Position numbers and translations under genes: made by a program. Positions 3,439 to 56,600 of a stretch of DNA of 64,000 nt are shown piece after piece. The stretch's first letter is position 1. The number at the start of each line of letters is the position of its first letter. The stretch is from Chondrosia reniformis (lineage: Eukaryota; Porifera; Demospongiae; Chondrillida; Chondrillidae), in NCBI GenBank assembly GCA_947172415.1, contig OX359201.1, positions 1,302,001-1,366,000 of the forward strand. The letters are read 5' to 3'. The notes below the pieces were generated by a model. That model had not been told where the DNA came from and did no database searches. It saw nothing but the letters and a program-made list of their open reading frames with translations.

Positions 3439-3446
3439 TATATAAG
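3439..3446 (+). promoter_or_regulatory. TATA box of small PDZ-ligand gene 1
   Basis: TATATAAG lies 75 bases before the ATG at 3514. A CRE-like TGATGTCA (one base off the TGACGTCA consensus) is at 3386-3393, and a reverse ETS-type CTTCCG follows it. All four paralogues have a TATA element 60-95 bases before the start, which supports this as the core promoter. Confidence 0.6.
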
Positions 3447-3513
3447 AGGCGATTTACCTCACCAATGCATAAGAAAGAGTTTGGAAGCCGTATACACAAC
3501 GAATATATACAAA

Positions 3514-4023
3514 ATGAGTACCTGGTCTGCCAAGAAAGCTGTTTTTGGTAAGAAGTCGAATCTTTTGAAAAAACTTTCAAGTTCCAAAGAATCTTTACTG
3601 GAGGTGACAACAGTAAGGACCGATTCAGGATCGGAGGCTGCAATCGATGCTCAAATGCAGAGAATTAAGGAGCAATTGAGTAAATTGCGACTACAAAGAA
3701 CTGATTTAAAACGTGGAATCGAAAATGTTAACTCCAATCTAGCTGATTTAAGAGGCGAATATGCCACTCGAGTATCTTTGAGTGGTAGCATTAGCGACCT
3801 GTCTTCAGTTGCAGGTAGCATGGCTAGTCTCGTCAGTGACGGGTCTTCTTGTTTCAGTGATTGTTATTTAATCGAAGATGAAGGAGTGACAAGTGATTCG
3901 ACAAGATCGGCCGATGAAGACATAAGGCCTACAAGTAGTTCGTCTATCATCAGCGAATCTTATGAGGATAGGATTGAAGCGAGCAGTGACATGCTTAAAG
4001 ACCAAGAGTTCACTTATTTATAA
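3514..4023 (+). CDS. Unrecognised small protein, paralogue 1 (coiled-coil, PDZ-ligand C-terminus)
   Basis: Intronless, 169 residues. The frame is open further upstream to 3277, but the start at 3514 is chosen because it follows the TATA box by a normal distance and gives the same length as paralogue 2. Seen: a basic Lys/Ser-rich N-terminus (residues 7-25), a helical heptad-like block at about 43-80, the family signature RGEYATRVSL at about 80-89, a Ser-rich segment, CFSDCYLIEDE at 113-123, a second Ser run, and DRIEAS before the C-terminal EFTYL. The last three residues (T-Y-L) fit a class I PDZ ligand. There is no signal peptide or membrane segment, so it is probably cytoplasmic. A polyadenylation signal AATAAA is at 4203-4208. 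I do not recognise the family; an adaptor or scaffold role is inference from the motifs only. Confidence 0.75.
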   Translation: MSTWSAKKAVFGKKSNLLKKLSSSKESLLEVTTVRTDSGSEAAIDAQMQRIKEQLSKLRLQRTDLKRGIENVNSNLADLRGEYATRVSLSGSISDLSSVAGSMASLVSDGSSCFSDCYLIEDEGVTSDSTRSADEDIRPTSSSSIISESYEDRIEASSDMLKDQEFTYL

Positions 4024-4217
4024 TTCTTCGCAAAAACACTTAACTATCATGCAAATCGCACACATTTGTGGTGTAATATGTATGTTTTTTTATATAACGA
4101 CTGTTTCATCTGAAATTGATCTCGTACGTACGTATATACGCGAATATATACTAGCTCTCGAAGGTATATTCGTGAGATTTTGAATTTTACATCGCAACAT
4201 GAAATAAAAACTACTAT

Positions 4218-4330
4218 ATCAATCAATCAATCAATCAATATTATTAGAGTGCACCGTGCCCATTGGCACTAGGGTACGGATTGGCCCCATGCAGCACTTA
4301 CAACAAGACAAAATAAATAATAAGAATAAG
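4218..4330 (-). repeat. Retroposon 3' tail with (TCAA)n
   Basis: A (ATCA)n run at 4218-4239 is followed by a GC-richer block (GTGCCCATTGGCAC and around). Read on the minus strand this is a block ending in (ATTG)n, the usual look of a non-LTR retrotransposon or SINE 3' end. A second tail with the same microsatellite lies at 19457. The family is not identified. Confidence 0.4.
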
Positions 4331-5632
4331 AACATGCAATTATATTGCAAGTGTTATACGCTTGACTTAAAAACGGTATACGTAGATGAGATGTAGATTG
4401 ATTTATAACTACGTTCACAATCGATGCCATCAGAGGCTCCAAATCTAGTAAACTAATAAGTTCGATGCCTGTCTGTATAATTAGACTTAACTGAATAAAG
4501 GATATTCTATTAATTACCGTAAGAACTAGTTGATTGTTAGTTAACCTTTAATGATATTCATCGATAATTTCCCTTTGATGTAACACATGACCTATCCATG
4601 GTATGAAGTAGCTGTCGTCACCTATCATTAAAATGTGAAAGGAAGTATTTTCTTAATATGTATATACATAACCACCTATAGTACATCTCATGACTTCAAG
4701 AGGAAGCTTGCAATTGGTCTATATAGGATTTAAACTATATCCTGGAAGTATTATAAGAGGCAGTCATGTGATTGTACATACAGTACATATATAGTAGTTT
4801 CAATTGTGTAATGTGTTTAGGACCAATTTAGAGAATTAAAAGGCTCCATAATCAAGCAAAGTAAAATTTATGATGCAACATTTAATTTCTCAACTATATT
4901 TATATATAGACATGTCCTGCATTTTTGATCTATAAAGGTATACATAATTCCAATTTCATTCATTCATGGATCTGGGTAATTCTTGTTGATATAGTACTGC
5001 AGCAATATGAAATTCAGCAATTAGTGATTTGCATATTGCTCATAGCTAATTAAGTAAACAAAATTATGTACCTAATATTACATATTACATTTATAGATCT
5101 TATATACCATGTAAACTTACTTACACATTATATACACATACTTTTTATTAATAAGTTATAATATACCAAAGCAAAGGTGCTTTCAATTAAGGAGACATCT
5201 GAGAGGTTTATGCGTATCATGATCAATGAACTGTCCAGTTGCATGTAACTTTTATAATTTTAGTATTTATTACAGATACATGTATACTGAAATATAATAT
5301 TTGTTATGTTTTGCATGGAGCCTATAAATAGTGTTAAAATTCTTGTCATAATAAGATCTTACTCCTCGCATACTTTTCATTTTATGTTACATGCTGGCAA
5401 CATATATAAAGCCTCTACATAAGTTATATATATATAGTGCCCAACTCCGGATCCGGGTACATCTGTCTCTATTAATTGGTAATTATAATGGATGTAAACA
5501 ATATTATTGCATGCACGATCAACGAATTAATTAAAGTTTAAAAATCCGTACTGAATAATCTTGAATTAATGTATAGTACAACTCAATTAACCACGTTTGA
5601 CGTGAAAAACATAAACTCATACATATACATAG
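4331..5632. other. AT-rich intergenic DNA, no gene seen
   Basis: The stretch separates paralogue 1 from the converging paralogue 2. It holds AT-rich sequence with scattered TATA and TACGTA words and no convincing open frame, splice pattern or terminal repeat. Confidence 0.5.
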
Positions 5633-6142
5633 TTATAAATAAGAAATCTCGTGGTCCTTTAGCATTTCAATGCTCGCTTCAATTCTGTCTTCACTAACGG
5701 TGGACGAACTACTTCCCGGCCTTTCAGAATCTTTAATAATGTTCGTTCTGCACTTTAATTTAGCTCCCGACTCGTCATCATCGAGCAAATAGCAATCACT
5801 GAAGTAGGAAAGGGAGCTGTCATCACTAGTGAGACTAGTTTTGCTAACGCACGATGTGATATCACTGAGACTATTGCTCAGCGATACTCGAGTCGCGTAC
5901 TCGCCTTTCAAATCAGTCAAGTTGGAAGAGACGTCCCCAACTCCTCGTTGTAGGTCTGTTCTCTGCAGTTGTAGCCCAGCCAGTTTATCTTTGATTTTCT
6001 GTAATTCTTCATCGATATCCATTAGAGGTTTTGTTTCACTCTTCTCTAGTAGTGAATCTTGAGAGAGAGATAATGTTTTAAGGAGTTTGGATTTCTTCCC
6101 CGTAATAGCTTTCTTCAGCGACTTGGTGTTTATTTTCGCCAT
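5633..6142 (-). CDS. Unrecognised small protein, paralogue 2 (coiled-coil, PDZ-ligand C-terminus)
   Basis: Intronless, 169 residues, on the opposite strand to and converging with paralogue 1. Order of parts: basic Lys-rich N-terminus (KKAITGKKSKLLK, about 10-22), SLSQDSLLE, helical block at about 43-80 with LQLQRTDLQRGV, the family signature GEYATRVSL at about 80-88, YFSDCYLLDDDES at about 113-125, a Ser run, EDRIEAS and the C-terminus HEISYL. S-Y-L again fits a class I PDZ ligand. Spacing from the DRIEAS motif to the C-terminus is the same as in paralogue 1, which argues that the tail is under constraint. The opposite-strand open frame at 5829-6062 is a shadow. Function unknown; it could be a signalling adaptor. 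Confidence 0.75.
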   Translation of the reverse strand: MAKINTKSLKKAITGKKSKLLKTLSLSQDSLLEKSETKPLMDIDEELQKIKDKLAGLQLQRTDLQRGVGDVSSNLTDLKGEYATRVSLSNSLSDITSCVSKTSLTSDDSSLSYFSDCYLLDDDESGAKLKCRTNIIKDSERPGSSSSTVSEDRIEASIEMLKDHEISYL

Positions 6143-6204
6143 CCTTATATATAATTAGATTGTACAGTCATGCAACTTGAATAGCCAAGGACCCAAGGTT
6201 CGCT

Positions 6205-6212
6205 CTTTTATA
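6205..6212 (-). promoter_or_regulatory. TATA box of paralogue 2
   Basis: On the minus strand TATAAAAG ends 62 bases before the ATG at 6142, in the same relative place as in the other three paralogues. Confidence 0.6.
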
Positions 6213-8535
6213 CCTTCTGTTACACACCTACTTACCCGCCCCATGTACACATATATATACCACGCGGCGCCGAGACTTTTGTACTACACTCGATAATACC
6301 TAATTTGCAGTTGTGGTTATTCATGCGACTGATACTAAGTCAGTTTACATAATAACATCAAGGATGTGGATTATGTAGATGTATACAGTAAAAGAAAAGT
6401 AACAAAGGGAAGTGACCCCATGCATGGCATATATATATACAAAAGGTACAATAAGCAATATCTGCCATGCAACTGTATATATGTAGTTAAAAGGCACGTA
6501 TAGGCCATCACCACTTAAGGCTACCATGCAGGGGAGGGAACCCATGGGGTGATTTGCCAGTTGAGTTCCGTCTATTCCACATTTTTAATATTATAGACCA
6601 CATTTTGCTACATACTCCTACATGCCTCAGTCAATGCCACTATCTAGTTTACTATATATATGAAATCCAGGAAACCTCTCTCTTATTTCCCAACCCAAAC
6701 TACTCCTAATGTCATGCTGACATAGATGTTCACTCCTCTCTAATCTACGTATATATATAGCCCCACATCTACCCTCTTCTACTCTTAATCTAACTGTACC
6801 CCCTCTTATCTTAGTAGATAATAAGGCTTCTAACTTTATATATATTCATTTATTCATATGTATCAATCTATTGAATATAATACACAACACTTATATGGCA
6901 TTGTTACTAAACTAACTTAATATATATAGCCAATACAATACTTCACACTCTAAATTGTGAGTACATAACATACTCTCATGATATTACTGTAATAAATAGA
7001 GCCAATAGGATCGAGTTGTTGCTTGTCAATGGATAATTTATTAACTGTTTCCAAACATTTCAACAATAAAACAATTGTATATGAGTGCATGAGTTTGTAA
7101 ACACTGCTTCAATACTAGCTTGTCTCCAATAGAAGCCCACCTTACGAGTTATAAAAGCCCGGGTTCAAAGGGGTTTTAAATATACAAGCCCCGGGCTTAT
7201 ATTAGAGATAATACGGTATATGTGCATGTGTGTGATGTGTGTGTGTGTGATAATCTTTTATGTATGTAGCAAGACTATACGTATATACACCTTATCATGT
7301 GTGAGCATTATATATATGGAATCTGAAAAATTAATTATTCTCCTCATCCTATAGCTTTAATAGTAGTTAGACATTTAAACATTTCTTGGAATGGTACATG
7401 CACTGATCTGGGATTAACTTGAAACAATCCAACCACATTTTTTCAAAACTAGCGTATTCTTTAGTATGTAAAAGTGCAAACCACAATGGTTTCCTTTAGA
7501 AATTTTGTTATTTAAGCCATAAATCTTCCATGTTTAAACAGAAGAGTGAACCCCATATGTAAATACACGTATCGTAATGTCACCAAAAGGCACAGAAGGC
7601 TTCTGTGCCTTTTGGTGCCTAAAGGCTACAATGCTTTAGATCCATACATATATACGTATGTATTCTAACAAACATAGACCTACCTACCTATATACAATAC
7701 TATATAACTATATATGCAAACAGCTACAATATTGTAATCCATAGATATTTGTGTGTAGTTATGTGTATTCACTTGTATACGTATATGCTATATATACATT
7801 ATATTGCAATTGGTGGATATAGTAATGATCAACATTATACAAATATACCTGCATGACTAGACTATAGTGAATTTAAAAAAGACCTAATGGTTACACAATG
7901 AGGTAGTACAAGGTTTATCTATATACATAAAGTATCCAGCCAAGTAAATGTATAGCAACCCTGAGGGAGGGAAAACTATAAGAGTGGCAGACTTGTATAC
8001 ACATACACATCAAACAGGTCCAACAGGAGGAGCTGGTTCACTTGTATTCAGTGGGTCACTTAAAATATGCATCAATGAATGTTTGGAAAGGTATATCTAT
8101 ATACCTCCGTTAGATGTACATATGTTTAGACAGTACAAAGGGCAAAGTGCATAAGTTCAAAGTTGCAATCCAGTTTGAATAGAGATACATCCATATCCCT
8201 TTCCAAAGTGTTAGTATGACTTTTTCACCATACATCTCATGAGTCAAGAATTTGAACAGTAACAGATTATTATATAATTATATTACAAAAAGTGAGAGCG
8301 TCAATGGTTTTATAGTTCATTGGATAGTAAAGGGATCATTAACTGTGTTTTAGCAATCATTATAGAGTACACAGGTCATGATCACATGCTTTAAGTTGAA
8401 GCTTGGAAGTGTAACTCTGTCAATGGAGAGATATGAAGCTGAAACATTATCTCAGCATTCACAGACATGTATTAAAGGTTTCCAATGAGTTTTGAAAATT
8501 TTGATAAATCTACCCAAATTCATGGGTCTTTATAG
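6213..8535. other. AT-rich region with palindromes, no firm gene
   Basis: No firm gene. At 7153-7199 there is an inverted repeat built on AAGCCCGGG; the block 7119-7215 shares TCTCCAATAGAAGCCCAC with 55897-55995, so it is a dispersed repeat. At 7581-7617 there is a perfect 18-base inverted repeat with a one-base loop. A possible exon at 8018-8090 (AG before, GTATAT after) is open in two frames and cannot be joined in phase to the next candidate. The stretch 8385-8535 is similar to 13040-13155 (shared GGTTTCCAATGAGTTTTG), another dispersed repeat. Confidence 0.45.
7581..7617. repeat. Perfect 18-base inverted repeat
   Basis: CACCAAAAGGCACAGAAG is followed after one base by its exact reverse complement. 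It would form a tight hairpin in RNA or a small cruciform in DNA. No gene is attached to it. Confidence 0.7.
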
Positions 8536-8815
8536 CTTGATCTTCCAGATTGTCAGTTTACAATTCCACCAAATGATGATGTCGCTGATGCCCTAGAGAC
8601 CTCCACCAATATAGAACAGTCAAAGTAAGTGCAGGACGACTCATTATATTAATACAGATTACTTTGTGTTGTTTGTGTCCAGCTTACAGACCTTGAATCA
8701 ACTGTATAGAAACTTGGTTATTCCTATAACTCTATATTATGTGGCTACTATAGTTTTGGTTTCCATTCTCATCAGTGATTTTGGAGTGATTTTGTTATCT
8801 AGACAAGCGTTTTAA
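8536..8815 (+). CDS. Candidate last two exons of an unidentified gene
   Basis: Exon 8536-8624 (AG before, GTAAGT after) reads LDLPDCQFTIPPNDD and onward, and ends in phase 2. Exon 8683-8815, after a TCCAG acceptor, continues in that phase: NLQTLNQLYRN, then a hydrophobic stretch with ITLYYVATIVLVSILIS that could cross a membrane, then TAA at 8813-8815. The two join without a stop over 73 codons, and only this frame works. Against it: no upstream exon with matching phase was found and the protein is not recognised. A nearby exon-like block (about 8970-9024, FLVLLKYTT then an Asp run) needs a different phase. It could be a gene remnant. Confidence 0.3.
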
Positions 8816-9295
8816 GGCCTTTAGTACGTATGTAATGATTACATAGGAAAGTGAAGTAGTATGTTCAGTGATTTCTTGCTGCATTTCAAATATAAATGTG
8901 ACAGGTTAGGTCTATAGTGAAGCCAGAAGTCTGTGATGTAGGCTTTCTCTTGTTTACTTTCAATGTAGTTCCTTGTTCTGCTGAAATATACAACATCAGA
9001 TGATGATGATTCTAACACACATCAGGTAGTAGTGCTGATTAACCCAAACAGCTAATGTGCCAGAGACCAAAGTGCATTGTATAGATTAGAGTTGATTCAG
9101 AGTTTATAGTAGAAAGTTTAAGAAGAAACCCTTTATGCAATAGTTGCCTTAACAATGTACATTCATAAATCACTATATAGAAAATGTAGTTATCCAACAA
9201 AATTGTATTTTGTTCACATTCACTATAATATTATGTTTACTTTACATTGTGGTTTGTCATGTACGTATAATATATTATATTATTGCCATGAATCA

Positions 9296-9574
9296 ATGGA
9301 GTTTCGGGTGAGGAGAGGCAGAACTCTCTGTTTGGCCATCTTTTTGGTATCCCTGTTGGTCTGCTACGCTAACAAGAGTGGCAGAGATAACTTAGAGAGG
9401 TGCGTATCTATGGCTGAAAATCCCGATGATAGCTCATCCGATCGCCACCTACTGGTACATGGCATCCTTGGTATAGCCGTGTCTACACTCGTGAGTATGG
9501 AAACATTTCAGTGTTTGATGAAGACGGAAAATATACAACATGCAATCGTCCGAGCTTATCGAAGCATTGGTTAG
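9296..9574 (+). CDS. Small putative secreted protein or signal-peptide exon
   Basis: The frame from ATG 9296 gives 92 residues. The N-terminus is a textbook signal peptide: MEFRVRRGR, then a hydrophobic core TLCLAIFLVSLLVCYA, followed by a polar mature part with ERCVSMAENPDDSSSD, then a second mildly hydrophobic stretch (HLLVHGILGIAVSTL). A good donor, GTGAGT, sits in frame at about 9491 after STL, so this may be only the first coding exon of a longer secreted or membrane protein; I found no convincing partner exon downstream. The surrounding sequence is AT-rich, while this block has more GC and CpG, as expected of coding DNA. The frame is open upstream to 9155 but that part is low-complexity. 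Function unknown. Confidence 0.4.
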   Translation: MEFRVRRGRTLCLAIFLVSLLVCYANKSGRDNLERCVSMAENPDDSSSDRHLLVHGILGIAVSTLVSMETFQCLMKTENIQHAIVRAYRSIG

Positions 9575-9829
9575 TTGATTTAGAAGACTAAACGTGGCTA
9601 TAGTTAGTGCAGTTGTACACCTATAGGCCTTCTATAATAGATTTGCCTTATATATTTATTTTCTAAATCTAGTTAATTTTTCATACATGTGAATGCTGAC
9701 ACCAATCATATAATAATAAATTGTAAAGTACAGCAAGAGTAAAAATATAGTCTACATCCTGTAAAAAGTTTTTTTTGAATTTTCTTCGATATTAATTTTA
9801 CCATAGATTACGTTACGTAGTCTATATAA

Positions 9830-10420
9830 TCTATGATTTTACATATCACAACGAGAAAAAAGAAGAAAAAACGACCCAAGCGTGTTTGGATCCTGATGGG
9901 TTCCCAGACCCTTCAACAAATATCGCGATATGCTAACGATAAGGAAAAAAGAGAAAAACGTCCATTCTCAGTGGGTTACAACAAGTATCGCGATATACTG
10001 ACGATAAGAAAAAAATAACCAGTCACGTTAGCCAGCAGAGATCTGCTGTTACCGTCGAGCACCACGAGGAGGTGTGACTTGGATTTTGCTCGACGCAGGG
10101 AGTTCACGTTTACCATCCACAATGCGAGCCGTCCTTCCATCGCTGGTCGTCTGGGGCCAGGATCGTTGGTAACGCCTAACTCGTGCAGTTTCGGCTTTGG
10201 TAGTCACAGAGTGACAGAACCGGCCTTATCCCTCCCCGGGTTCCGTTGTATCGATAAATCGATAATTGGTGAGCACATCCCCATGGCACCAACCGATACA
10301 GGGCAGCTACGGAACCTAGACACTACCAAGCCAACGAGTTAGGACTTACTTCCTTACCCGAGGCTCCACGCTGGCAGGCCTGAATGGTCATGTTAAAATG
10401 GACTATTTATATGCAACTAC
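9830..10420. other. GC-richer island, unassigned
   Basis: Base composition and CpG rise sharply here compared with both flanks. TATCGCGATAT occurs twice, near 9920 and 9988, in a roughly 70-base imperfect direct repeat. An 87-residue frame at 10079-10342 is open but looks like no family I know. It is not rRNA as far as I can tell. It could be the 5' part or terminal region of a mobile element. Confidence 0.35.
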
Positions 10421-10621
10421 GTTGTGAAATGATAGAGAAAAAAAGGAAAAAAACTGATTACCGTTGTAATTGATCTAATTCCAGAAGCTTCCTTTTATTC
10501 TATACGCTTCTCACTCGCATCACTCTGCCACCAGCGCGGTGGTGATGGAAGTGGAAATATACTAGTTATAAATGTACAGTTCCTAAGTATGGCTGGTGCT
10601 TAACATTTTATACATATAGTA

Positions 10622-10975
10622 TGTGATTTGGGGAAGGTGGAAGATGTACAACATTGGCTGCTGGAGTGCGAGAGATGGAAGGATGAGCGGGTGGACCTTT
10701 TTCAGTCTTTGTCACGGGTAGCACTGGGGTTTGATTTGATGACTGATGATGATAAACTATTTGCCATTCTGGATCAAGGATGCAAGCATCACTCAATCCT
10801 TAAGATTATTTTGAAGATGTGGACTGCTAGATTTAGTTGACCCTTTTGATTGATGACTTGATGTTTTGTTGAACTGATTTATTTGTCATGATGTATTGGT
10901 GTGTGCCTCATAGGACAGTCTGTCCTAGTGCTATGCATGTGGCACGTTAAATAATAATAATAATAATAATATACA
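10622..10975 (+). mobile_element. LINE-type retrotransposon 3' end
   Basis: The frame 10628-10840 reads VEDVQHWLLECERW and onward, resembling the short Cys/His-bearing C-terminal segment after the reverse transcriptase of many non-LTR retrotransposons (E-D-V-x-H-x-L-x-x-C). It is followed by about 110 bases of UTR and then a (AAT)n tail at about 10950-10970, the usual 3' signature. The rest of the element is missing, so this is a 5'-truncated copy. Family assignment is by recalled motif only. Confidence 0.5.
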
Positions 10976-11037
10976 ATAATAGAGCTATAGTTTATTATAT
11001 TAATTTAAGCACCAGCTATACTTCCTGTACTAATACC

Positions 11038-11093
11038 GACGGTGCTTAACCACTTTTTGCAGGTATTGAATACAAAAGTGGTTAAGCATCGTC
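11038..11093. repeat. Inverted repeat with GGTGCTTAACCACTTTT arms
   Basis: GACGGTGCTTAACCACTTTT at 11038-11057 is matched, after a short loop, by its near-perfect reverse complement ending at 11093. The same words recur at 10588, 11010, 11146, 12797 and 12857 and inside the satellite at 12136-12680, in both orientations. Confidence 0.6.
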
Positions 11094-11557
11094 AAATATA
11101 GTACACATTTAGTACACAGACTACAACTATATAATAGTATAAATTTAAGCACCAGCTATACTTAATAAAAGTATTTATTATAAGTAACAACGCCGAGTTA
11201 GCATACTCACGCCAAGTTACTCGAGGTTTTTCGTTTGTATTTTCTTTCTTTAATAGCCTGCAGCAAATCCAGAGTTGACTTAAATAGGAAGAACAATAGA
11301 TTTTGGAAGCGTTAGCTATGTTTGACGGTTCGATTAATAACCCAGGGTCTAGCTGTTCTTCAAGCGATGATTAAAGCTTTTACTTCTGTATTTATAGGTT
11401 TGTAAATGGAACGAAACCTTGAACGACTATGTAGACAGTTTTGTTTTAATCCGTTTCGGACAGAAAAGTGTCGAATTTGCCTGCTAATCTTCAATGTCTA
11501 CCATAATGATGATGAGCAAGATGACTGATGATAAAAGTAGATAAGGTACAAATTAAT

Positions 11558-12059
11558 GGTCCGGTATATTTTTCGGACCGCGTCGGACCGACCGGACTGG
11601 TCCGGTCAGTAAAAATGGTGGTCTATTTTTCTGACCAATGCCCACCAACAGGTGCACGTAGTTGTGTGACCTTCGTGGATGCTGTTAAGCGACTCACTGC
11701 ATGGATAATTAAGGCTGCTATCTCTTTAGGACTCGGCACTGGTCGGTCTACGCTGTGACAGTTTGTCATGTGAAACCTGGTTTACACCACGATGAGTGTG
11801 AAGTTACGTTCTAGGAGACTCGCAATAACATGAGTTTCACTTCTTCGCGCCGGGTTCGCGCATGTGCATGCATGTATTGGGTTGTGCAGAACTAGCGCGA
11901 GAGTACTTCATATCTCCGGTTAACGTCTACATGGTCTGACCACGGTCAGAAATTTATACCGGTGGTCCGACATTTATACCGGTTACGCAATAATTTGGAC
12001 CGTCCTATCTTTTGTATTGGTCGGTCCGGTCCGACGCGGTCCGAAAAATATACCCGACC
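11558..12059. mobile_element. hAT-like MITE with 8-base target duplication
   Basis: The 502-base element has long terminal inverted repeats. The left end reads GGTCCGGTATATTTTTCGGA and the right end is its imperfect reverse complement; both continue into CCGCGTCGGACCG. It is flanked by AAATTAAT at 11550-11557 and again at 12060-12067, an exact 8-base duplication as made by hAT transposases. There is no transposase frame, so it is non-autonomous. It is GC-richer than its surroundings. The intact target duplication and good terminal repeats suggest a fairly recent insertion. Confidence 0.75.
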
Positions 12060-12135
12060 AAATTAATCGTGTATACGTATATAGCATATATAGGATGGTG
12101 CTTTGGGGGCGATTGCAATTGGTAGACACCTAAAT

Positions 12136-12680
12136 ACACTTAACTGTTATGTTAGTGCTTGCTGGTGCTTAGAGCAAAAAGTGACTTAAGCACCGGCAAG
12201 CTTATAAGATGGGTGTAGGACAGTTGGCAGACACCTGGACCCTCTTAACTGTCAGTTTGGGGCTTGCCGGTGCTTAGAGCAAAAAGTGACTTAAGCACCG
12301 GCAAGCTTATAAGATGGGTGTAGGACAGTTGGCAGACACCTGGACCCTCGATCTTAACTGTCAGTTTGGGGCTTGCCGGTGCTTAGAGCAAAAAGTGACT
12401 TGAGGACTGGCAAGCTTATAAGATGGGCATAGGACAGTTGGCAGACACCTGGACCCCCTTAACTGTCAGTTTGGGGCTTGCCGGTGCTTAGAGTAAAAAG
12501 TGACTTAAGCACCGGCAAGCTTATTAGATGGGCGTAGGACAGTTGGCAGACACCTGGACCCCCTTAACTGTCAGTTTGGGGCTTGCCGGTGCTTAGAGTA
12601 AAAAGTGACTTAAGCACCGCAAGCCTATTAGATGGGCGTAGGACAATTGGCAGACACCTGGACCCCCTTAACTGTCAGTC
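12136..12680. repeat. Hairpin-forming satellite, about five units of 104-109 bases
   Basis: CTTAACTG marks recur at about 12136, 12244, 12353, 12458, 12563 and 12667, giving a period of 104-109. Each full unit contains GCTTGCCGGTGCTTA and, 15 bases later, TAAGCACCGGCAAGC (12262-12276 and 12292-12306 in one unit), a perfect 15-base inverted repeat. The arms are mostly kept from unit to unit while spacers vary slightly. The remainder of the unit reads GACAGTTGGCAGACACCTGG and similar. No coding frame is evident. Confidence 0.85.
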
Positions 12681-13989
12681 TCTTTCCTTTCCCTTTTGCC
12701 ATTCGCCGAGCGTAAGAGATAATAAGATGTTCCATAGATAGCGTTTTGTTTATTATAGCTACTTTAACACAGCTATGTGTACAGAGTTAGTATAAGCTGG
12801 TGCTTATCGATGTACCGTTATTTATTTATATAAATGTAATATAATTCTTAACAGTGCTTAACCACTTTTGTTTACACTTTAATAGCTCACTTTTTGTGTA
12901 CCGCGGTACCGGCACCTTAACGCAATAGATTCCGTTACCAGTACCGGTACTCTAGCCACTGCATTTTGCAAATTTGCCCTTAGGCTATCTCTCACCATAC
13001 ATTAGTATAACTTTGCATACCAGTAATTTAATGTACATTTACTGTTGTAACTCTGTCAAATATGAAACTGCAACATTTTGTCAGCATTTACAGACATGTA
13101 TGAAAGGTTTCCAATGAGTTTTGCAATTTTGGTATATATCTACCCAAATTTGCCCTATCTCTCACCATACACTGCATATACCATGCAGAGTAGGCCTAGC
13201 ATGTATGAAAATGGTGTAATATATATAATACGATTTTTCATGTCTGTACAATGCTTAGATTAAGTTTCGAATTTGTATCTGAACATTTGCGGCACTAACT
13301 AAATACAGCACTAAATATACTTTATTATGTACCCTAGTGCTAATTTGTTTTTGCACGTATGCACTATAATATCAATAATAATAATATTTTCATTTTAAGA
13401 TTAATTTCATGACTACATGACTACAATAAAATAGATAATAATAGTAATATAAATAATAGTATTAGTAGGAAAGTATAATAATAATATAATAATAATAATA
13501 ATAATAATAAAAATAAAAAAATTGTTGCATATGTGAGATATATGTGCATGAGTGAACCAAATTGTTCATTGTTTCTATTTGCTGGTGAATTGATAGACTA
13601 TAGGATTACTTTGTTTATATAATTGAGGATCAATATATACTCCCACTTGTTATAGGCCATTAACACATTTAATTATCTTTAATATAATTATACATTACAA
13701 ACCTAAACAAAGCAACAAACATACATTACAAACCGAGACTAATATGTTAATTACATTTTCAAATCATATTGTTATAGGGAAGTTAAGAAAGTGGTTAATT
13801 GTGAACTAGGAAGAGAAAAGTACTAAACAGGCTAGCCAGTTACAACGTGATAATTAATCGACCGATACAAGAACTGTATAATCGGAAATATTAATAATTT
13901 TATCGATTATTCTATTTATATCGCTGAGAACCCGGAAGTATAAAATAACCTACGTAGCCATCCACACCTTGCGCAAAGCAATGCGAAGG
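12681..13989. other. Intergenic DNA with repeat fragments
   Basis: It contains two more GGTGCTTA words (about 12797 and 12857), a dispersed-repeat fragment at 13040-13155 that matches 8385-8535, and an AAT-rich simple stretch at about 13370-13510. CCGGAAGT, an ETS-type site, is at 13932-13939, 50 bases before the TATA box of paralogue 3. I see no gene. Confidence 0.5.
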
Positions 13990-13997
13990 TATAAAAG
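13990..13997 (+). promoter_or_regulatory. TATA box of paralogue 3
   Basis: TATAAAAG lies 92 bases before the ATG at 14082. From here to the start codon the sequence is almost identical to the leader of paralogue 4, where the spacing is also 92; further upstream the two soon diverge. Confidence 0.7.
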
Positions 13998-14081
13998 GAC
14001 AGATCTGTCGAAGAATGATTCAATCTAGATCTGCAGTGATTAATATAAGCACTCTATTGATTCGAGAGAATTGTAACAGTC

Positions 14082-14663
14082 ATGAACAACAGCACGAGAT
14101 CCTGGAGCGTGTCAAAGTACCTGACGATCCGACGTCGCTCCAATCAGGTTGAATATGCGACGGTCGACAAGAAAGCTTTACCTGCTCTTCCGAAGAGAAA
14201 ATTTTCTTCTGGTGAACAGCCTAACGCTAGCGCAACAGAAAGCGATATTGACGCTCAAATGAAGCGAATCAAGGAACAACTGAGCGGACTTAAACTTCAG
14301 CGTACAAGCATTCAAAAGGGTATCGAAGAGATGGGAACGAACTTGTCAGATATTAGAGGCGAATATGCAGCTCGTGTATCTCTCAATGGAAGCATCAGTG
14401 ATCTCTCTTCACTAAGCAGTTTTGCTAGCATAGGAGATAGATCGTCCGTATCTAGTAATTTAAGTCAATGCTACCTCATTGAAGAGAGTGATGAATGTAT
14501 CAGTTTTTACGAAAATGATGTTTACGAGCAAGACACCGACTGCATCCCTGATCCTTTAAGCATTACTACTCTAGCTCCCGAAACACCAGTGGAACAAAAG
14601 GAATCGGCTACTACCTCACAAACCACGGAATTATTCAACGTAACAGAAGTCACCTATCTCTAG
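14082..14663 (+). CDS. Unrecognised small protein, paralogue 3 (ITIM-like, SH3-like and PDZ-ligand motifs)
   Basis: Intronless, 193 residues. N-terminal half: RRRSN at about 17-21 (PKA-type site), VEYATV at 23-28, which fits the ITIM pattern (I/V/L/S)xYxx(I/V/L), then LPALPKRK at 33-40, containing PxxPx(K/R) of class II SH3 ligands. Then comes the family helix at about 55-92 (DIDAQMKRIKEQL, LKLQRTSIQKGIEEM) and the signature RGEYAARVSL, followed by Ser-rich sequence, SQCYLIEESDE, an acidic patch and the C-terminus TEVTYL. The T-Y-L end fits a class I PDZ ligand, as in all four paralogues. Start chosen by TATA spacing and identity with paralogue 4. AATAAA is at about 14827. No membrane segment. 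The motif set suggests a cytoplasmic signalling adaptor, but short motifs are weak evidence and the family is not recognised. Confidence 0.75.
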   Translation: MNNSTRSWSVSKYLTIRRRSNQVEYATVDKKALPALPKRKFSSGEQPNASATESDIDAQMKRIKEQLSGLKLQRTSIQKGIEEMGTNLSDIRGEYAARVSLNGSISDLSSLSSFASIGDRSSVSSNLSQCYLIEESDECISFYENDVYEQDTDCIPDPLSITTLAPETPVEQKESATTSQTTELFNVTEVTYL

Positions 14664-15371
14664 AAACGCAATGAATTCTTGCAGCAACTTTTGTCCTTTT
14701 TAATTCGATGGCATTTGTGTATCTGTTACAGTATAACTGTATAATCGATGACTGTTACTTTTTCTCTATATAAATGTTTGTTGTAATAATTGTGATATGT
14801 CATGATAATTAAAGTCCATGATCAGTAATAAATGCTCATCGATGCAAGCGTATATATTATTATTAAAATTGTGTGCCCAAGGCACAAAATAAAAGAAGAT
14901 AATTGCAACCAGTGGCCATGGGGCACATGCAGGGATGCACCTGGGCACGTATAAGCCATCACCACTTGCAAGGCTATAGACCAGATCGTCCACTCACCCA
15001 GGTGCACAGCCCAGCTGACTGGGAGTATGTCATACAGTTGTTCATGTGATTTCTAATTATTGATAATTGTTATTTGGGGATATATAGCCATATAGCCAGA
15101 AATGTCATAGGTTGCATGCATATACGCATATAATATTAATTGAACATCGTACATGAAAGACTCATCCACATGATCAGATTCTGCATAATTGTGCAAATAA
15201 ATTAAACTTAACCAATTATACACGCAAGCATAAGCTGCATGATCATAATACGTATACACTTGCATTGTGGTTCAAAAATTATATCTTTGAATTCTAGCTA
15301 TAATATGTGTTTTATATTTTGCTTGCCAAAAATGTGGGCCATACATGTACTAACCTATATAGGTTAGTATA
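14664..15371. other. Intergenic DNA between paralogues 3 and 4
   Basis: It holds the 3' UTR of paralogue 3 and AT-rich sequence. The short open frames on the minus strand here (14766-15265) overlap each other in different frames and look like chance. Confidence 0.4.
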
Positions 15372-15545
15372 TCTGAATAAAGGGAGTTTATTGCACTTGG
15401 CCTGTGCAAAGGCTATGATGATAAGCAGAAAATAACCATGGTTGCCAATTTAATAGGACGTCGGTCCCCGGCCCAGCCAAGATTAGACTTTAGTCACTCA
15501 GCTGGTTGGTGTAATACTTTCCAGTGATTATATTTGGCTTATTAT
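15372..15545 (+). repeat. Dispersed repeat, family D fragment
   Basis: GGAGTTTATTGCACTTGGCC, then TGTGCAAAGGCTATGATGATAAGCA, and later TAGGACGTCGGTCCC match the inverted-repeat element in the P450 gene at 57198-57740 and a fragment at 56236-56300. No coding capacity. Confidence 0.6.
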
Positions 15546-15968
15546 ATTAATTTTTGCTATATATATATTATAACGTCCATTGATGTGGAAGTGTTCTAAT
15601 GCCATATGCATGCAACTGATCAACAAACAAGGGGATAGACACTGTGTCTGCACAAGTATTTATATATCACATTAATGATATTAGGAAAGGATTGTGCATA
15701 TATACGTGAGGTTATATATGAAATTATTAAATTAATAATAAGGAGCTATAAGTTAATTATTCTGGCAAAGCGTATATATACTTGTTTGATGACTTGCTTG
15801 GTTATGCATAATTACCACTACTGATGACACATATGAAGAAATGTATATCGCAAATTAAACTGCTAATCTGTCGACATCATCGGACATTCCTGTAACAGTT
15901 CCTGTATATGTAGCCTTTCATTTTAGCCGGAAGTAAGGAAGTAGTAACGAAAATCTTCTGAGCGACGA

Positions 15969-15976
15969 TATAAAAG
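15969..15976 (+). promoter_or_regulatory. TATA box of paralogue 4
   Basis: TATAAAAG lies 92 bases before the ATG at 16061, with the leader nearly identical to that of paralogue 3. An ETS-type CCGGAAGT is at 15927-15934. Confidence 0.7.
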
Positions 15977-16060
15977 GACAGATCTGTCGAAGAATGATTC
16001 AATCTAGATCTGCAGTGATTAATATAAGCACTCTATTGATTCGAGAGAATTGTAACAGTC

Positions 16061-16666
16061 ATGAACAACAGCACGAGATCCTGGAGCGTGTCAAAGTACC
16101 TGACGATCCGACGTCGCTCCAATCAGGTTGAGTATGCGACGGTCGACAAGAAAGCTAATACATTACCTGCTCTTCCGAAGAGAAAATTTTCTTCTGGTGA
16201 ACAGCCTAACGCTAGCGCAACAGCAAGCGATATTGACGCTCAAATGAAGCGAATCAAGGAACAACTGAGCGGACTTAAACTTCAGCGTACAAGCATTCAA
16301 AAGGGCATCGAAGAGATGGGAACGAACTTGTCAGATATTAGAGGCGAATATGCAGCTCGTGTATCTCTCAACGGAAGTATCAGCGACCTCTCTTCTCTTG
16401 GCAGTTTCGCAAGTATTTTCAGCGACAGATCGTCCGTATCTAGTAGCTTAAGTCAATGCTACCTCATTGAAGAGAGTGATGAATGTATCAGTTGTTGCGA
16501 AAATGATGTTTACGAGCAAGACACCGACACGGACTGCAGCAGCTCTGGATCTACTCCTTCAAGCATTACTACTCTAGCTCCCGAAACACCCGTGGAACAA
16601 AAGGAATTGGCTACTACCTCACAAACCACGGAATTATTCAACGTGACAGAAGTCACCTATCTCTGA
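16061..16666 (+). CDS. Unrecognised small protein, paralogue 4 (recent duplicate of paralogue 3)
   Basis: Intronless, 201 residues, the nearest relative of paralogue 3, about 1.4 kb upstream on the same strand. It has the same VEYATV, PxxP (TLPALPKRK), helix, RGEYAARVSL, SQCYLIEESDE and C-terminal TEVTYL. Differences are in-frame: two residues added before LPALP, FSDRSS against GDRSS, and a different stretch after YEQDTD (here Ser-rich, CSSSGSTPSS). All indels keep the frame and both ends are identical, so both copies look functional. The leader from the TATA box onward is also shared. ATTAAA at about 16791 may be the polyadenylation signal. The TMC gene converges on it from the other side, with only about 300 bases between stop codons. 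Confidence 0.75.
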   Translation: MNNSTRSWSVSKYLTIRRRSNQVEYATVDKKANTLPALPKRKFSSGEQPNASATASDIDAQMKRIKEQLSGLKLQRTSIQKGIEEMGTNLSDIRGEYAARVSLNGSISDLSSLGSFASIFSDRSSVSSSLSQCYLIEESDECISCCENDVYEQDTDTDCSSSGSTPSSITTLAPETPVEQKELATTSQTTELFNVTEVTYL

Positions 16667-22900: not shown

Positions 22901-25900
22901 ATGGCATTCCTCTCCTAATACTGAATGGATAGGAAATAGCTTTTTCCATGACTATACACTCCTTAAGACTGTATAATGGATTTTCCAGATGTGTGACTCC
23001 ATAAATGAGCCAGCTTGCTATTGTTACCAATAATATGTATTAGCTGTTAAATATGATTAAGAGACGGAAAGAGATGCAGGATCTGTTAATTAGATCATAC
23101 AAATTAGTTATGCTAAGATTTAATATTGAAATAATTTAGAACAAAAGAACACTGTAATAATTAAGTAAGCTACATCACTGTGAAACTCAATATATAGTGA
23201 ACAGACATATTAAAAATGTACACACTTGATATTATACATATGTACTATCCCTTAATTAGGTATATTTACATAAGAACTTAGTAAAGGATATCATAAAATA
23301 ACACTTTGATCATTCAATACGGAGCCCACCAAATATCATGCCAAGAATTTTTCTCATGTAACTTAAGCAACCTAAAGTCATCACATTCTTTCATAAGAGA
23401 GTGTGACTATCAGCTTATGTGAGGCGGAGACTTTGCCAAAACATCTGTCTTTCTGCTGTATTGTTAAAGCAGATGTAACACATCAGTGTATAGCAAAAAG
23501 TGTAAACTTTGTATAATTAACACCAAAAATATGTGAACAATTACAAAACAGTCAATCATCGCCCACCATTACCTGAGCATTATGAAGCACGATTAAGTGC
23601 CAAATCTCAACTGTTATAGTGGCACACTCATACATCCTGTCCTTAGGGGGAATTGAATCTATACTTATACTGTACGTTTTTAGATAAGACTACTACAAAT
23701 ATATGTAAGAACGCTACTACAGTACACAATTCTAAACTCATTTCTCCCAAATCCTACCTTTCCTAAAATCTTTTAGACTCAAATTGTACAATTGCATGTA
23801 TTTTTTGACCCATTGGAGAAGAAGAAGAAGGAGAATACTCTTGTATCCTCATCCAAAGCTCTAACTAGGTTTACGTACAGATTTACTCTAACGTAGATGC
23901 ACGTAGCATGTTGAAAAATGTTGTGTTAGATTATTCACACGTGCATTATCTCCTCCACACATTACAGTTAGCTATAGGCCATTTAACAGAACTAACAATT
24001 CTTTGAATATACCTCCATACTGACCCTAATCAAGGCAAATGACTAAAAAATAAATAATTGTCAGATGTAGTAGGTGACATTCCTATCTCTATGACAGTGA
24101 TAATTGTAAAGAGAAAGGCTATTTAACAAAACTAACGAGTCGTTAGATATTATCCTCCCTTCCGCTACAACACAGCAGTTAACCAATCGGCAAAGCTTAT
24201 CCAACACTTAAACCAGACTAATACAATGAGTGTCCCAATATATTCCCACGTACAGACATTATATCAACTCCTTAGTGATTGAGAGATAATCATATTATAT
24301 GGTAATAATGATTGCCTAAACGCAGCCCCCCCTTGTCCATACCACTAGCCAACTTAACCATTAGAAATTATGAAATGATAGTAATACAAGCAATACAATA
24401 ATAGTAATACAAGGATTCACCGAAGATCAAGATAAAGAAAAAGACAAAGACTCCCAGGATCACTGATGAAGGGTGGAATTCCCAGAAACAGCTGTCTGAC
24501 CCAGTGGAGAAGAAGATGAAAGAAGGGAAAAGAAGGAAGAAAAGACTCCTGTATCTTCATCCAAAGCTCTCTTCAGGTTTAGTTCCCCTATAGGCTCTTT
24601 TACAGAATAGGCATAGCATGTAGGAAAATGGTATCTTAGATTTTTCAAGCATAACCTTTCCTTCTTCCTATACATATACGTATATACACACAGAAAGACA
24701 TACTGCCCAAAGTGTGAAAATTATATAATAAACTATAAAGTCTTGCTGACAAATTGTGAGTGATGTCAGTAAACTATTTCACACGAGAATTTGGAACAAT
24801 AAAACATGTGTCATCAGTTTACTATATCCCACACAAGGAGAGCTGAGGGGTGTGAAAATTATATGAGGTAGAATTAAACCTGATGCAACTGGATTGCAAA
24901 ACCTACACTAAATTGTTTGTACAAGTAGAATCTAAGGCTCGCTGCACTTTGCAATAACAAAGATACAGAATGCTTAGCAACAACAGATATGGCTTCTTGG
25001 CTCTAGTTTCCTTCAATTGAAAGTAATTGGTTATTCATGCAGCATAGTATATTGAGCATCTAATGTATACACATCCCATACAAGATGGCATACATATATA
25101 GTTGTACGTATACAAGTGAACAAATTCAAATATTATACATGAATGATCTGAGGATTTCGAGTACTTCCAAGGTCTGCTGATGTGAAGTTGCTGGCCAAGT
25201 GGAGAAGAAGAACAAAGAACAAAGAAGACTGTAATCCCTCTTTATCACTGAAAATGTAACTTTTAAGTAAGTCAAAGATGTTAAAACATGCTAACTTATT
25301 ACAGTCACAGTCTAATACACATTATCACATGACCGAATACCATATTTATGAGATCAATTAGTCTATGCACAGTTTATAACACAATAATTGGTGAAGCCCT
25401 TAAAATGTACCAAGATATAGGTATATACCTTAATTGGTCAATTACAGAAATGATTACATTCGATATGTACCAGTGTGATATGTACCAGTGTGATATGTAC
25501 CAGTGTGATATGTACCAGTGTGATATGTACCAGTGTGATATGTACCAGTGTGATATGTACCAATGTGATATGTACCAGTGTGATATGTACCAGTGTGATA
25601 TGTACCAGTGTGATACATACTATGCAGATCACAGGCAGAGAAAGGAAGCTAGCTAATATGTGATCATCACCCAATCCCACTCAGTTACATGTGTGTTATG
25701 AGGATCTCACTAGCAAATATATAGATATACAAACATAGCCTCCACAGAATACTACAGTCAAATTAAACTCCCCCTGAAACTAATTGGAAAAACCCAATCT
25801 CAGATTCTCCCCCGTCATCTAGAATAGTCTTTGACATTTAAGGAGTCTTCACACTCCATTAGGCAGATGAGGTTTTGGTCATTGACACTCAATTTAGGGT

Positions 25901-53699: not shown

Positions 53700-56600
53700 A
53701 TGTCAAAGCAAGTTCAATTCTCTTTGAGGTTTTCAAAAACTCTGTCTACTTCTATTGCAAGTAAACCGTCCAAATCGCTGATTTGGAGAAGTACTGGAAT
53801 GAAGAAGCCTGAAATCACGTACACGGTTCCACTAAGAAAGGGTTTAGAAGATTTACCTGTACCGGGAAATAAATGGAAGATACTGGAAAATTTTTTGCTT
53901 CCAGGAAATAAGGATCTGAAAACCCTTTACAATTCGATCAACGAGGGGCCTCCGTTTTCTATTTATCGTTTGCCGCTACCCTTCACTCCATGGCCGCTGG
54001 TGTTCGTACGCTCTATCGAATATGTTGACCTATTAATGAAAAATGAGGGATCGCTTCCGAAAAGGAGGGAAGGAGAGCTGTGCAATTTTATGAAACGCAA
54101 AGGGCTTGGTGCTGGCATGTTCATATCGTAAGTTTATTTAACATGCATGCACGCTTCGAATTATAATCCAAAGAAAATTTATTAATTCGAAACATTTCAA
54201 CATCTCTGCATATTTTGCATTATGTTAAATTCAAAATGCAAACTTTAAGATGTTTTATATTAGAGAGTAGTATATAGGGATGGCATGCACGAAGGCGATA
54301 TGCTTGAACAAAGGTGTGATGTTATAGAGAGTGGTACGGCCTGAATTCATGCATATAATATAAACGGAAAAGGCCATTTTAACGTCCACACGTGTCCATA
54401 CCAAAATGGCTGTCTTCAATCGCGACGTGTGTCGATTCCTGGATCAACTCGATTTCCTAAGGGAATAGGCACCTATATGTTGGCTGCGTACGTAAGTGCA
54501 CTACTAATGACTTATGGTAGAATAGTTACTACACTTTTCAATTAAAATATAGTCTAGTAATTCTATTCTGCCTTGTGGCAACAGTAGCTAGCTATTTTAA
54601 AATTTTAAGTTGAAGTGTAAAAAGTGGTGCGGCCATGGCCGTAGCAGCCGCACCGGAGGCGCCGGCCCTGTTTAATTATCTCAAGTAATTTAGTTTTCAT
54701 CTATTTTATATATAGGCAGACTTTGTCCTCCGTATACGCATTTTCTACCAAACGGAGGCCTAAATAAAAAAATCCCTTTATTTTAATACCCTGAATTTTA
54801 TGCTAATGTGCCCATCCTGTTTCTAAGTCCTTTCTTGGAGCCATATATATATATTTACTTATTTAATTATTTATATTACGTATGTTACCTTATATAAATA
54901 TATTGTAACTTACACTGTATATAATGAAGTGATATAAGGGTTGTTTGTTGCGATCATGATTTAATCCAGAGGTATTATTGAGCAACAGCAACATAAATTA
55001 TTGATAATAGGACGTTTCAACCCGTAGGTCTTCATCAGCAAACATGCTCTGGATTAAAACTGTATATAATATATGCATGCAGGAACTGGGAAGAATGGCA
55101 AACTCTGAGATCTAAAGCTACACCCCAGGTCATACCTCGGAGGATAACTGAGTTTGTTTCTCCAATCTGTCAAGTAGCAGATGACTTAATAAACCACCTC
55201 CTTACAGAGAGGGGGCTTGATGGAAACGTTTTTGACATAAGGGAACCCATGATTAATTGGGCTATGGAAGGTACAGACCTATATAATACATTTACGTATA
55301 TAATATGAATTGTAAAAACAGATCTGATCTAGGATCGCATTATTTTTCTGTTATTTTAAATCCAAAAGGGCCAGTCTTCTTAATTAAAGGCGGGGGTCTC
55401 AGTTAACAACCATACTGTGGTATTTAGACGTTCCACTTGAGGGTCGGTTTAGAGTAGTCACGATCACTGTTATAACACTACCGTATATGCTATATATATA
55501 TGTACTATTTCTAGTAACAATTAAATCCTAACAATCAGTCACAAGTATGCCACACATACATGCACAGAAAATTATGTCAAAGTATATGAGCTAAGATCAT
55601 AATGCTTCACTATATATATGCATGGCTTCTTGGTTCTAGACCATCTGCACAAGATTATTAGTAGATATACATAATGTATATGCAATAAAATATATATAGA
55701 TTACCAAGATAAAGGGTGATGCTCCACTGTAATCTGAGATTTGCCATACTATATAGATGTATAAGTAATTTTAAAAGTTTTCTTGATCAGTGTGACATGC
55801 ATATGCATGGCATGCAAGTCTAAATTATATATATAGATCTTCATGAAACAGTTTCTACAGCTATATATTACTAACTGACCATTTACCATATTATCTCTAA
55901 TATAAGCCCATATCTCTAATGCTAGCCCATCTCCAATAGAAGCCCACTTTTACGAGTCACTGAAAAAATAGAAGTCCAATCCCCAATATAAGCCCACTGA
56001 CAACCAGCCAGAAAAAACTGAACGATTTCCGTAGCCGTATGTTAAATGATTGGCTCTCACTATATATATATATAGTCACAGTGACTGTTAACTTCTATTT
56101 CCTATATATGACATAATAATAGTTGCATGACATTAAAATGTTAGTTAGTGTTTAAAATTTATTTTGAACTAGTATTCTGTATATTAAATCTCTTTAATTA
56201 AAGGTGCCTGGAATATACAATACTGCATTTAAAAAGGGGAGTTTATTGCACTTGAGCCTGTGCTAGGCTATTGTTGCAAATAATAATTATCCAGTGTTGT
56301 TTACTATTTGCAATACTATGTATTTGTATCATGTTATAATTAAGGTATGTTGGCAATATAGGAGTGCTTTACGTGATTTATGGCACCAGACCCATGCATG
56401 AACCAAGTATAATTATTATGTATTATAGGAATGGGAGTTTTCCTTTTTGGAAAAAGGTTGGAAATGCTGAATAATCCAACTTCAAAGATGTTACAGTTGA
56501 GAAAATCTGGAATTACTTTCGTTGAAGGCCTTGCTCCCCTGTTTACGTTCCCACAGCTGTTTAAGTACTTTCCAACACCGAGAAGTGTTGGGTTTGAAAA

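Follow-up and report, generated by a model that had tools for sequence, protein, structure and literature searches.

Four clustered, apparently intronless genes of the sponge Chondrosia reniformis encode coiled-coil proteins whose C termini fit a class I PDZ ligand

What might a sponge do with four small, related, apparently intronless genes set close together in its genome? The genes in question, here called G1 to G4, lie in a 64,000-nucleotide stretch of Chondrosia reniformis DNA (assembly GCA_947172415.1, contig OX359201.1, positions 1,302,001 to 1,366,000), which is the window referred to throughout. An earlier note, made from the letters of this DNA alone, proposed that they encode signaling adaptors. 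Parts of that proposal hold: the genes form a homologous family, their products share a conserved coiled-coil helix, and their C termini are constrained beyond the surrounding tail and fit the class I pattern of PDZ ligands. The adaptor function itself is a matter of likelihood. The reading favored here, at roughly one chance in two, is that these are oligomeric cytosolic adaptors that would present several PDZ ligands at once. The odds given to it and to three rival explanations overlap.

Are these genuine protein-coding genes? Each is an open reading frame (ORF) running from ATG to stop, at the place that the earlier note had given; G2 is on the minus strand, a point absent from that note. 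The four proteins align end to end. G1 shares 56% of its residues with G2 and 48% with each of G3 and G4, which share 94% with each other. Between G1, G2, and the G3/G4 pair, the proportion of differing synonymous sites (pS) is 0.75 to 0.83, near or past saturation, and that of differing replacement sites (pN) is 0.28 to 0.46 (0.75 and 0.28, respectively, for G1 and G2). Since synonymous sites are near or past saturation while replacement sites are not, G1 to G4 are selected proteins rather than chance ORFs. The genes are homologous and under purifying selection. For the G3-G4 pair, dN is 0.036 and dS is 0.148; from the end of the core up to the last 11 residues, this pair shows more replacement than synonymous change per site (pN 0.109, pS 0.050), an excess consistent with weak or changing constraint. 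Because G3 and G4 are so close, the “four” genes count as about three independent sequences. That both ends of each ORF are conserved supports the view that the coding regions lack introns.

Does the family extend beyond the cluster? A tblastn search of the genome (117.4 Mb in 15 contigs) with G4, G2, and G1 as queries returned only these four family places plus two weak matches. One, found with G4 (E 0.47, 26% identity), was rejected for its in-frame stop and the other, found with G1 (E 2.95), as a long ORF of coiled-coil appearance. A degenerate pattern, (R/K)GEYAx(R/S)V, whose codons let in a few other residues as well, also matched at the four family places only, and its reversed control gave 0 matches in the genome.

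The genes were also said to be TATA driven, and the word TATAWAAGR does stand upstream of all four ATG codons (Table 1). This word, itself derived from the four genes, occurs 20 times in the 128 kb of strand in the window, the family boxes included, which gives it about a 0.5% chance of falling in any given 35-base stretch. That it precedes some three independent sequences by chance is unlikely. Candidate sites for other factors were seen as well (cyclic AMP response element-like in G1, ETS in G3 and G4, C/EBP in G3, and Sp1 in G2). These sites are putative, none is common to all four promoters, and they were set aside as a family feature. The compact, TATA-driven, intronless form of the genes suggests that they could be rapidly induced by a signal or stress.

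What do the encoded proteins look like? The best-conserved long block of the family contains the shared central helix of the original description, which turns out to carry a six-heptad coiled-coil pattern in all four proteins. In a 40-residue core segment from ID(A/E) to GEY, with limits set by eye, a single heptad register places hydrophobic residues at 11 of 12 a and d positions versus 1 of 28 positions elsewhere, with identical counts in each protein. This contrast was reached by 0 of 20,000 shuffles per segment, even though each shuffle was scored in whichever of the seven registers suited it best. The sole polar core position is an invariant arginine. Identity over the core is 49/79, 53/78, and 54/79 for G1 versus G2, G3, and G4, and 40/80 and 41/81 for G2 versus G3 and G4. 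The signature RGEYA(T/A)RVSL is found in all four once its first position is relaxed to (R/K), G2 having lysine there. In basic leucine zipper (bZIP) proteins, a basic region, NxxAAxx(C/S)R, adjoins the zipper; it occurs in none of the four proteins, no bZIP family is in their Pfam list, and this assignment was rejected. So was an RVxF docking site for protein phosphatase 1, the RVSL of the signature having no F or W.

Could the coil be the main business of these proteins? They might be structural or assembly subunits that mainly hetero-oligomerize, for instance in the cytoskeleton or in vesicle tethering, the tail serving as a minor localization tag. The coil's place in the best-conserved long block and its invariant arginine are in keeping with this, as is a match of G1 to the Pfam family Filament over the coil (14.6 bits versus a cutoff of 40), of the sort that coiled coils often give. 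However, no Pfam match of the four proteins rises above its cutoff, matches in a profile search of the PDB are weak (best E 0.058), and the tail, as described next, is constrained in its own right. We consider such a structural role unlikely.

The core is followed by a stretch rich in serine and acidic residues that includes the CYL(I/L)(E/D) motif, present in all four as claimed, and then a poorly conserved segment in which G1/G2 and G3/G4 share only 4/33 to 6/33 residues, with 15 to 20 gaps. A DxxLL sorting signal at CYL(L/I) was considered and dropped, the aspartate being found only in G1 and G2. The extreme C terminus is conserved beyond this surrounding tail. All four proteins end in (S/T)YL, as the earlier note had it, and so meet the class I pattern x-(S/T)-x-hydrophobic at a free carboxyl end. 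Cross-group similarity was scored over the last 45 residues, ungapped and anchored at the C terminus. The last five residues, E-(F/I/V)-(S/T)-Y-L, rank 1st of 40 windows, their score being matched in 0 of 50,000 position shuffles; the last four rank 2nd of 41 (4 of 50,000 shuffles). This tail, ending in a free carboxyl group, fits a class I PDZ ligand, and its conservation across saturated synonymous divergence is a stronger argument than the mere presence of the pattern.

Are there domains to which such a ligand could bind? The genome holds 71 PDZ matches at E<=0.001 and 82 SH2 matches, these figures being counts of exon pieces and not of domains or genes. A histidine at position alpha-B1 marks class I PDZ domains; of 30 PDZ loci examined by eye, 26 reach this position, and 14 of those carry the histidine. 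According to PMC1876816, another sponge, Amphimedon, has Dlg, Shank, Homer, PICK1, and GRIP, and the residues of its Dlg that contact the ligand are conserved. Homer itself has no PDZ domain.

Several points weigh against a PDZ ligand. The class I pattern is expected by chance at about 7.6% of C termini of such composition, only some three independent sequences display it here, and the tail test was designed with the motif already known. Cross-group comparison of the last 11 residues finds only 4 of 11 identical, constraint being confined to the last five. Many class I domains favor an acidic residue at -3, where these proteins have F, I, or V, and 12 of the 26 readable PDZ matches are without the class I histidine. 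Finally, Y(-1) and E(-4) are also invariant, a degree of conservation that a minimal class I ligand would not need and that makes another reader of the C terminus possible. Who might that reader be? If the proteins were coiled-coil regulators of another kind, Ex(S/T)YL could be recognized by a C-end-recognizing ligase, a tetratricopeptide repeat (TPR) protein, a transport or peroxisomal receptor, or a protein that reads Y(-1) once phosphorylated. Class I PDZ domains require only positions -2 and 0, and a factor of this sort would explain the invariance of -1 and -4 alongside them. On the other hand, -1 and -4 do matter to many PDZ domains, the class I pattern fits all four proteins, and by the usual definitions the tail is no canonical type 1 peroxisomal targeting signal (PTS1), 14-3-3 mode III site (there is no arginine upstream), or EEVD ending. 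A non-PDZ reader strikes us as doubtful, if worth keeping in mind.

What of the other end of the proteins? The region before the coil is basic in all four (net charge, +4 to +6). An N-terminal extension is found only in G3 and G4; in it, VEYATV fits the definition of a motif like the immunoreceptor tyrosine-based inhibitory motif (ITIM), and PALPKR fits that of a class II SH3 ligand. VEYATV and PxxPx(K/R) are identical in these sister genes, which gives no independent sign of constraint, and absent from G1 and G2; such short motifs are also frequent by chance. The proposal that the N termini recruit different partners can be inferred only from these short motifs of G3 and G4.

Might the proteins instead be sponge relatives of a known animal family, such as an adaptor with SH2- and SH3-binding motifs, that have diverged too far for Pfam? 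This is a claim of kinship and is compatible with an adaptor role. SCIMP (PF15050) does weakly match the tyrosine- and proline-rich N-terminal region of G4 and G3, at 16.5 and 12.5 bits. These scores are far under the cutoff of 27, however, and the family is unlisted for G1 and G2. In addition, SCIMP is a transmembrane adaptor, whereas G1 to G4 have no membrane-like segment: their highest 19-residue Kyte-Doolittle means are 1.05, 0.47, 0.81, and 0.83, respectively, and the usual membrane threshold is 1.6. SCIMP was rejected on both counts, and kinship with any such family seems improbable.

Searches elsewhere likewise turned up no described family, there being no match above cutoff in Pfam or NCBIfam and only weak ones in PHROGs and the PDB. 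Besides Filament and SCIMP, the subthreshold Pfam matches are ACBP4_C (G1), NPV_P10 and DUF7547 (G2), and Seryl_tRNA_N and APC_r (G4). NCBIfam gave two subthreshold matches (13.6 bits versus 278.85 and 12.3 versus 200). These subthreshold matches, the best PHROGs match (E 0.02), and the five weak PDB matches, the best of them to a dehydrogenase, are all taken as chance. Pattern matches in a collection of viral contigs (216) and in one of genome contigs (212) yielded 0 confirmed relatives in either. No comparable family appeared in the open-licence literature, judged by titles and the openings of abstracts.

How would oligomeric adaptors of this kind work? The coiled coil would form dimers or trimers, each oligomer thereby showing two or three C termini. 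These could engage the class I PDZ domains of scaffolds at membranes or junctions, gaining avidity and drawing the scaffolds into clusters or cross-linked assemblies, and the differing N termini (basic, with SH3- and phosphotyrosine-like motifs in G3 and G4) might recruit partners specific to each paralogue.

The cluster also carries marks of its own history. Upstream of their TATA boxes, blocks of 50 aligned columns show only 7 to 24 matches between G3 and G4. The next two blocks, from 14006 on, agree at 50/50 each and the coding region at 33 to 50 of 50; past the stop codon, the blocks drop to 17 to 33 of 50. By eye, the step in identity (13990-14663 versus 15969-16666) starts at the TATA box. 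Synonymous divergence within the pair is uneven (dS 0.03 for the N-terminal block against 0.31 for the core, with 0.05 and 0.15 in two later parts, from small counts). The pattern would fit gene conversion, or else a duplication confined to the TATA box and gene, with upstream control that is probably separate. Retroposition is an unlikely origin for G3 and G4, since their common tract starts with the TATA box, ahead of a start site. G1 has mixed affinities: in the core it resembles G3 and G4 more than G2, and in the N-terminal and later regions it resembles G2 more. Conversion between paralogues may possibly lie behind this.

Table 1. Features of the four-gene cluster (positions in the window; TATA box distances are from the ATG)
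Feature	Position	Strand	Details	Basis
G1	3514-4023	+	169 amino acids, single-exon ORF, tail QEFTYL	ORF, alignment, purifying selection
G2	5633-6142	-	169 amino acids, single-exon ORF, tail HEISYL	ORF, alignment, selection
G3	14082-14663	+	193 amino acids, single-exon ORF, tail TEVTYL, extended N terminus carrying VEYATV and PALPKR	ORF, alignment, motif scan
G4	16061-16666	+	201 amino acids, single-exon ORF, tail TEVTYL, close sister of G3	ORF, alignment, identity
TATA box of G1 (TATATAAGA)	3439-3447	+	-75	
TATA box of G2 (TATAAAAGA)	6204-6212	-	-70	
TATA box of G3 (TATAAAAGG)	13990-13998	+	-92	
TATA box of G4 (TATAAAAGG)	15969-15977	+	-92	
Coiled coil of G1	3643-3762	+	residues 44-83, then ATRVSL	heptad test
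Coiled coil of G2	5897-6016	-	residues 43-82	heptad test
Coiled coil of G3	14247-14366	+	residues 56-95	heptad test
Coiled coil of G4	16232-16351	+	residues 58-97	heptad test
Last five codons of G1	4006-4020	+	EFTYL, class I PDZ ligand pattern	C-anchored conservation test
Last five codons of G2	5636-5650	-	EISYL	C-anchored conservation test
Last five codons of G3	14646-14660	+	EVTYL	C-anchored conservation test
Last five codons of G4	16649-16663	+	EVTYL	C-anchored conservation test

What surrounds the cluster? An ORC5 exon (Pfam ORC5_C) lies at the left edge of the window and an exon-sized cytochrome P450 frame lies to the right of the cluster (56413-56853), so multi-exon genes flank the four genes on both sides. 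Between G2 and G3 is a tandem array of a 105-base unit (12139-12679, 5.1 copies), and a short tandem repeat at 25400-25620 reads (MYQCD)n in one frame. The window also holds two ribozyme matches. One, to a hepatitis delta virus (HDV)-like ribozyme (RF02682; 10021-10094, minus strand; 44.2 bits versus a gathering score of 44), sits inside a repeat of about 470 bases (about 10000-10476). Of 115 candidate places for this repeat, 40 were scored, the window's copy included, and all are 97 to 100% identical over the 380 bases queried; the scored copies are spread over all 14 large contigs. The repeat looks like a recently active mobile element. The other match, to a type I hammerhead ribozyme (57546-57590, plus strand; 34.6 bits versus 34), is in an interspersed element for which scoring 40 of 766 candidates gave 52 matches, most of 93 to 97% identity and several in close pairs of opposite orientation.

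The remaining contig, contig 15, is the 17,451-base mitochondrial genome, in which cox1 reads TGA as tryptophan. It carries atp9, confirmed by Pfam, a gene that can also occur in fungi and choanoflagellates. PMC2444032 reports atp9 in all of its 22 demosponge mitochondrial DNAs, Amphimedon queenslandica excepted. Its presence here points to a demosponge-type sponge without proving it. ARAGORN, run with the bacterial code, finds nine tRNA-like genes, either because the contig has few of them or because the scan misses some.

Why should these genes matter? One bolder idea, offered tentatively, is that they are sponge-restricted, signal-induced, free-standing cross-linkers of PDZ proteins, consisting of an oligomerizing coil and a PDZ ligand with no catalytic domain and shaped by gene conversion and diverging N termini. 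If so, an animal without nerves would have come up with soluble regulators of its own for Dlg/Shank-type scaffolds, distinct from those of the vertebrate postsynapse. A family joining an oligomerizer to a PDZ ligand, with little else, would offer direct access to the roles of PDZ scaffolds in sponge cells and would show plainly how duplication within one locus can give rise to a new adaptor family.

How do these proteins compare with known systems? Short tyrosine and proline motifs in G3 and G4, along with the subthreshold Pfam matches, recall SCIMP and other adaptors with SH2- and SH3-binding motifs, a likeness in which G1 and G2, without such motifs, have no part. The C terminus of beta-PIX combines a coiled coil with a PDZ ligand that binds Shank and is presented by an oligomer. 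However, beta-PIX is an SH3-DH-PH exchange factor, and none of these three domains is found by Pfam in G1 to G4. Another parallel is the C-terminal module of SynGAP-alpha1, a coiled coil followed by QTRV that binds PSD-95; like G1 to G4, it joins a coil to a class I ligand at a free C terminus, and its oligomers present several (PMC7314543). That paper reports that both the complete coiled coil and the PDZ ligand are needed for condensates with PSD-95 in living cells. The two differ in that SynGAP is a large GTPase-activating protein, whereas G1 to G4 have 169 to 201 residues, some 85 to 105 of them between coil and C terminus, and no enzymatic domain found by Pfam. The likeness is one of apparent way of working and implies no kinship. 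The pairing of a coiled coil with a C-terminal PDZ ligand is known from other adaptors; a free-standing set of such proteins, encoded by clustered intronless genes, is unmatched in the databases searched.

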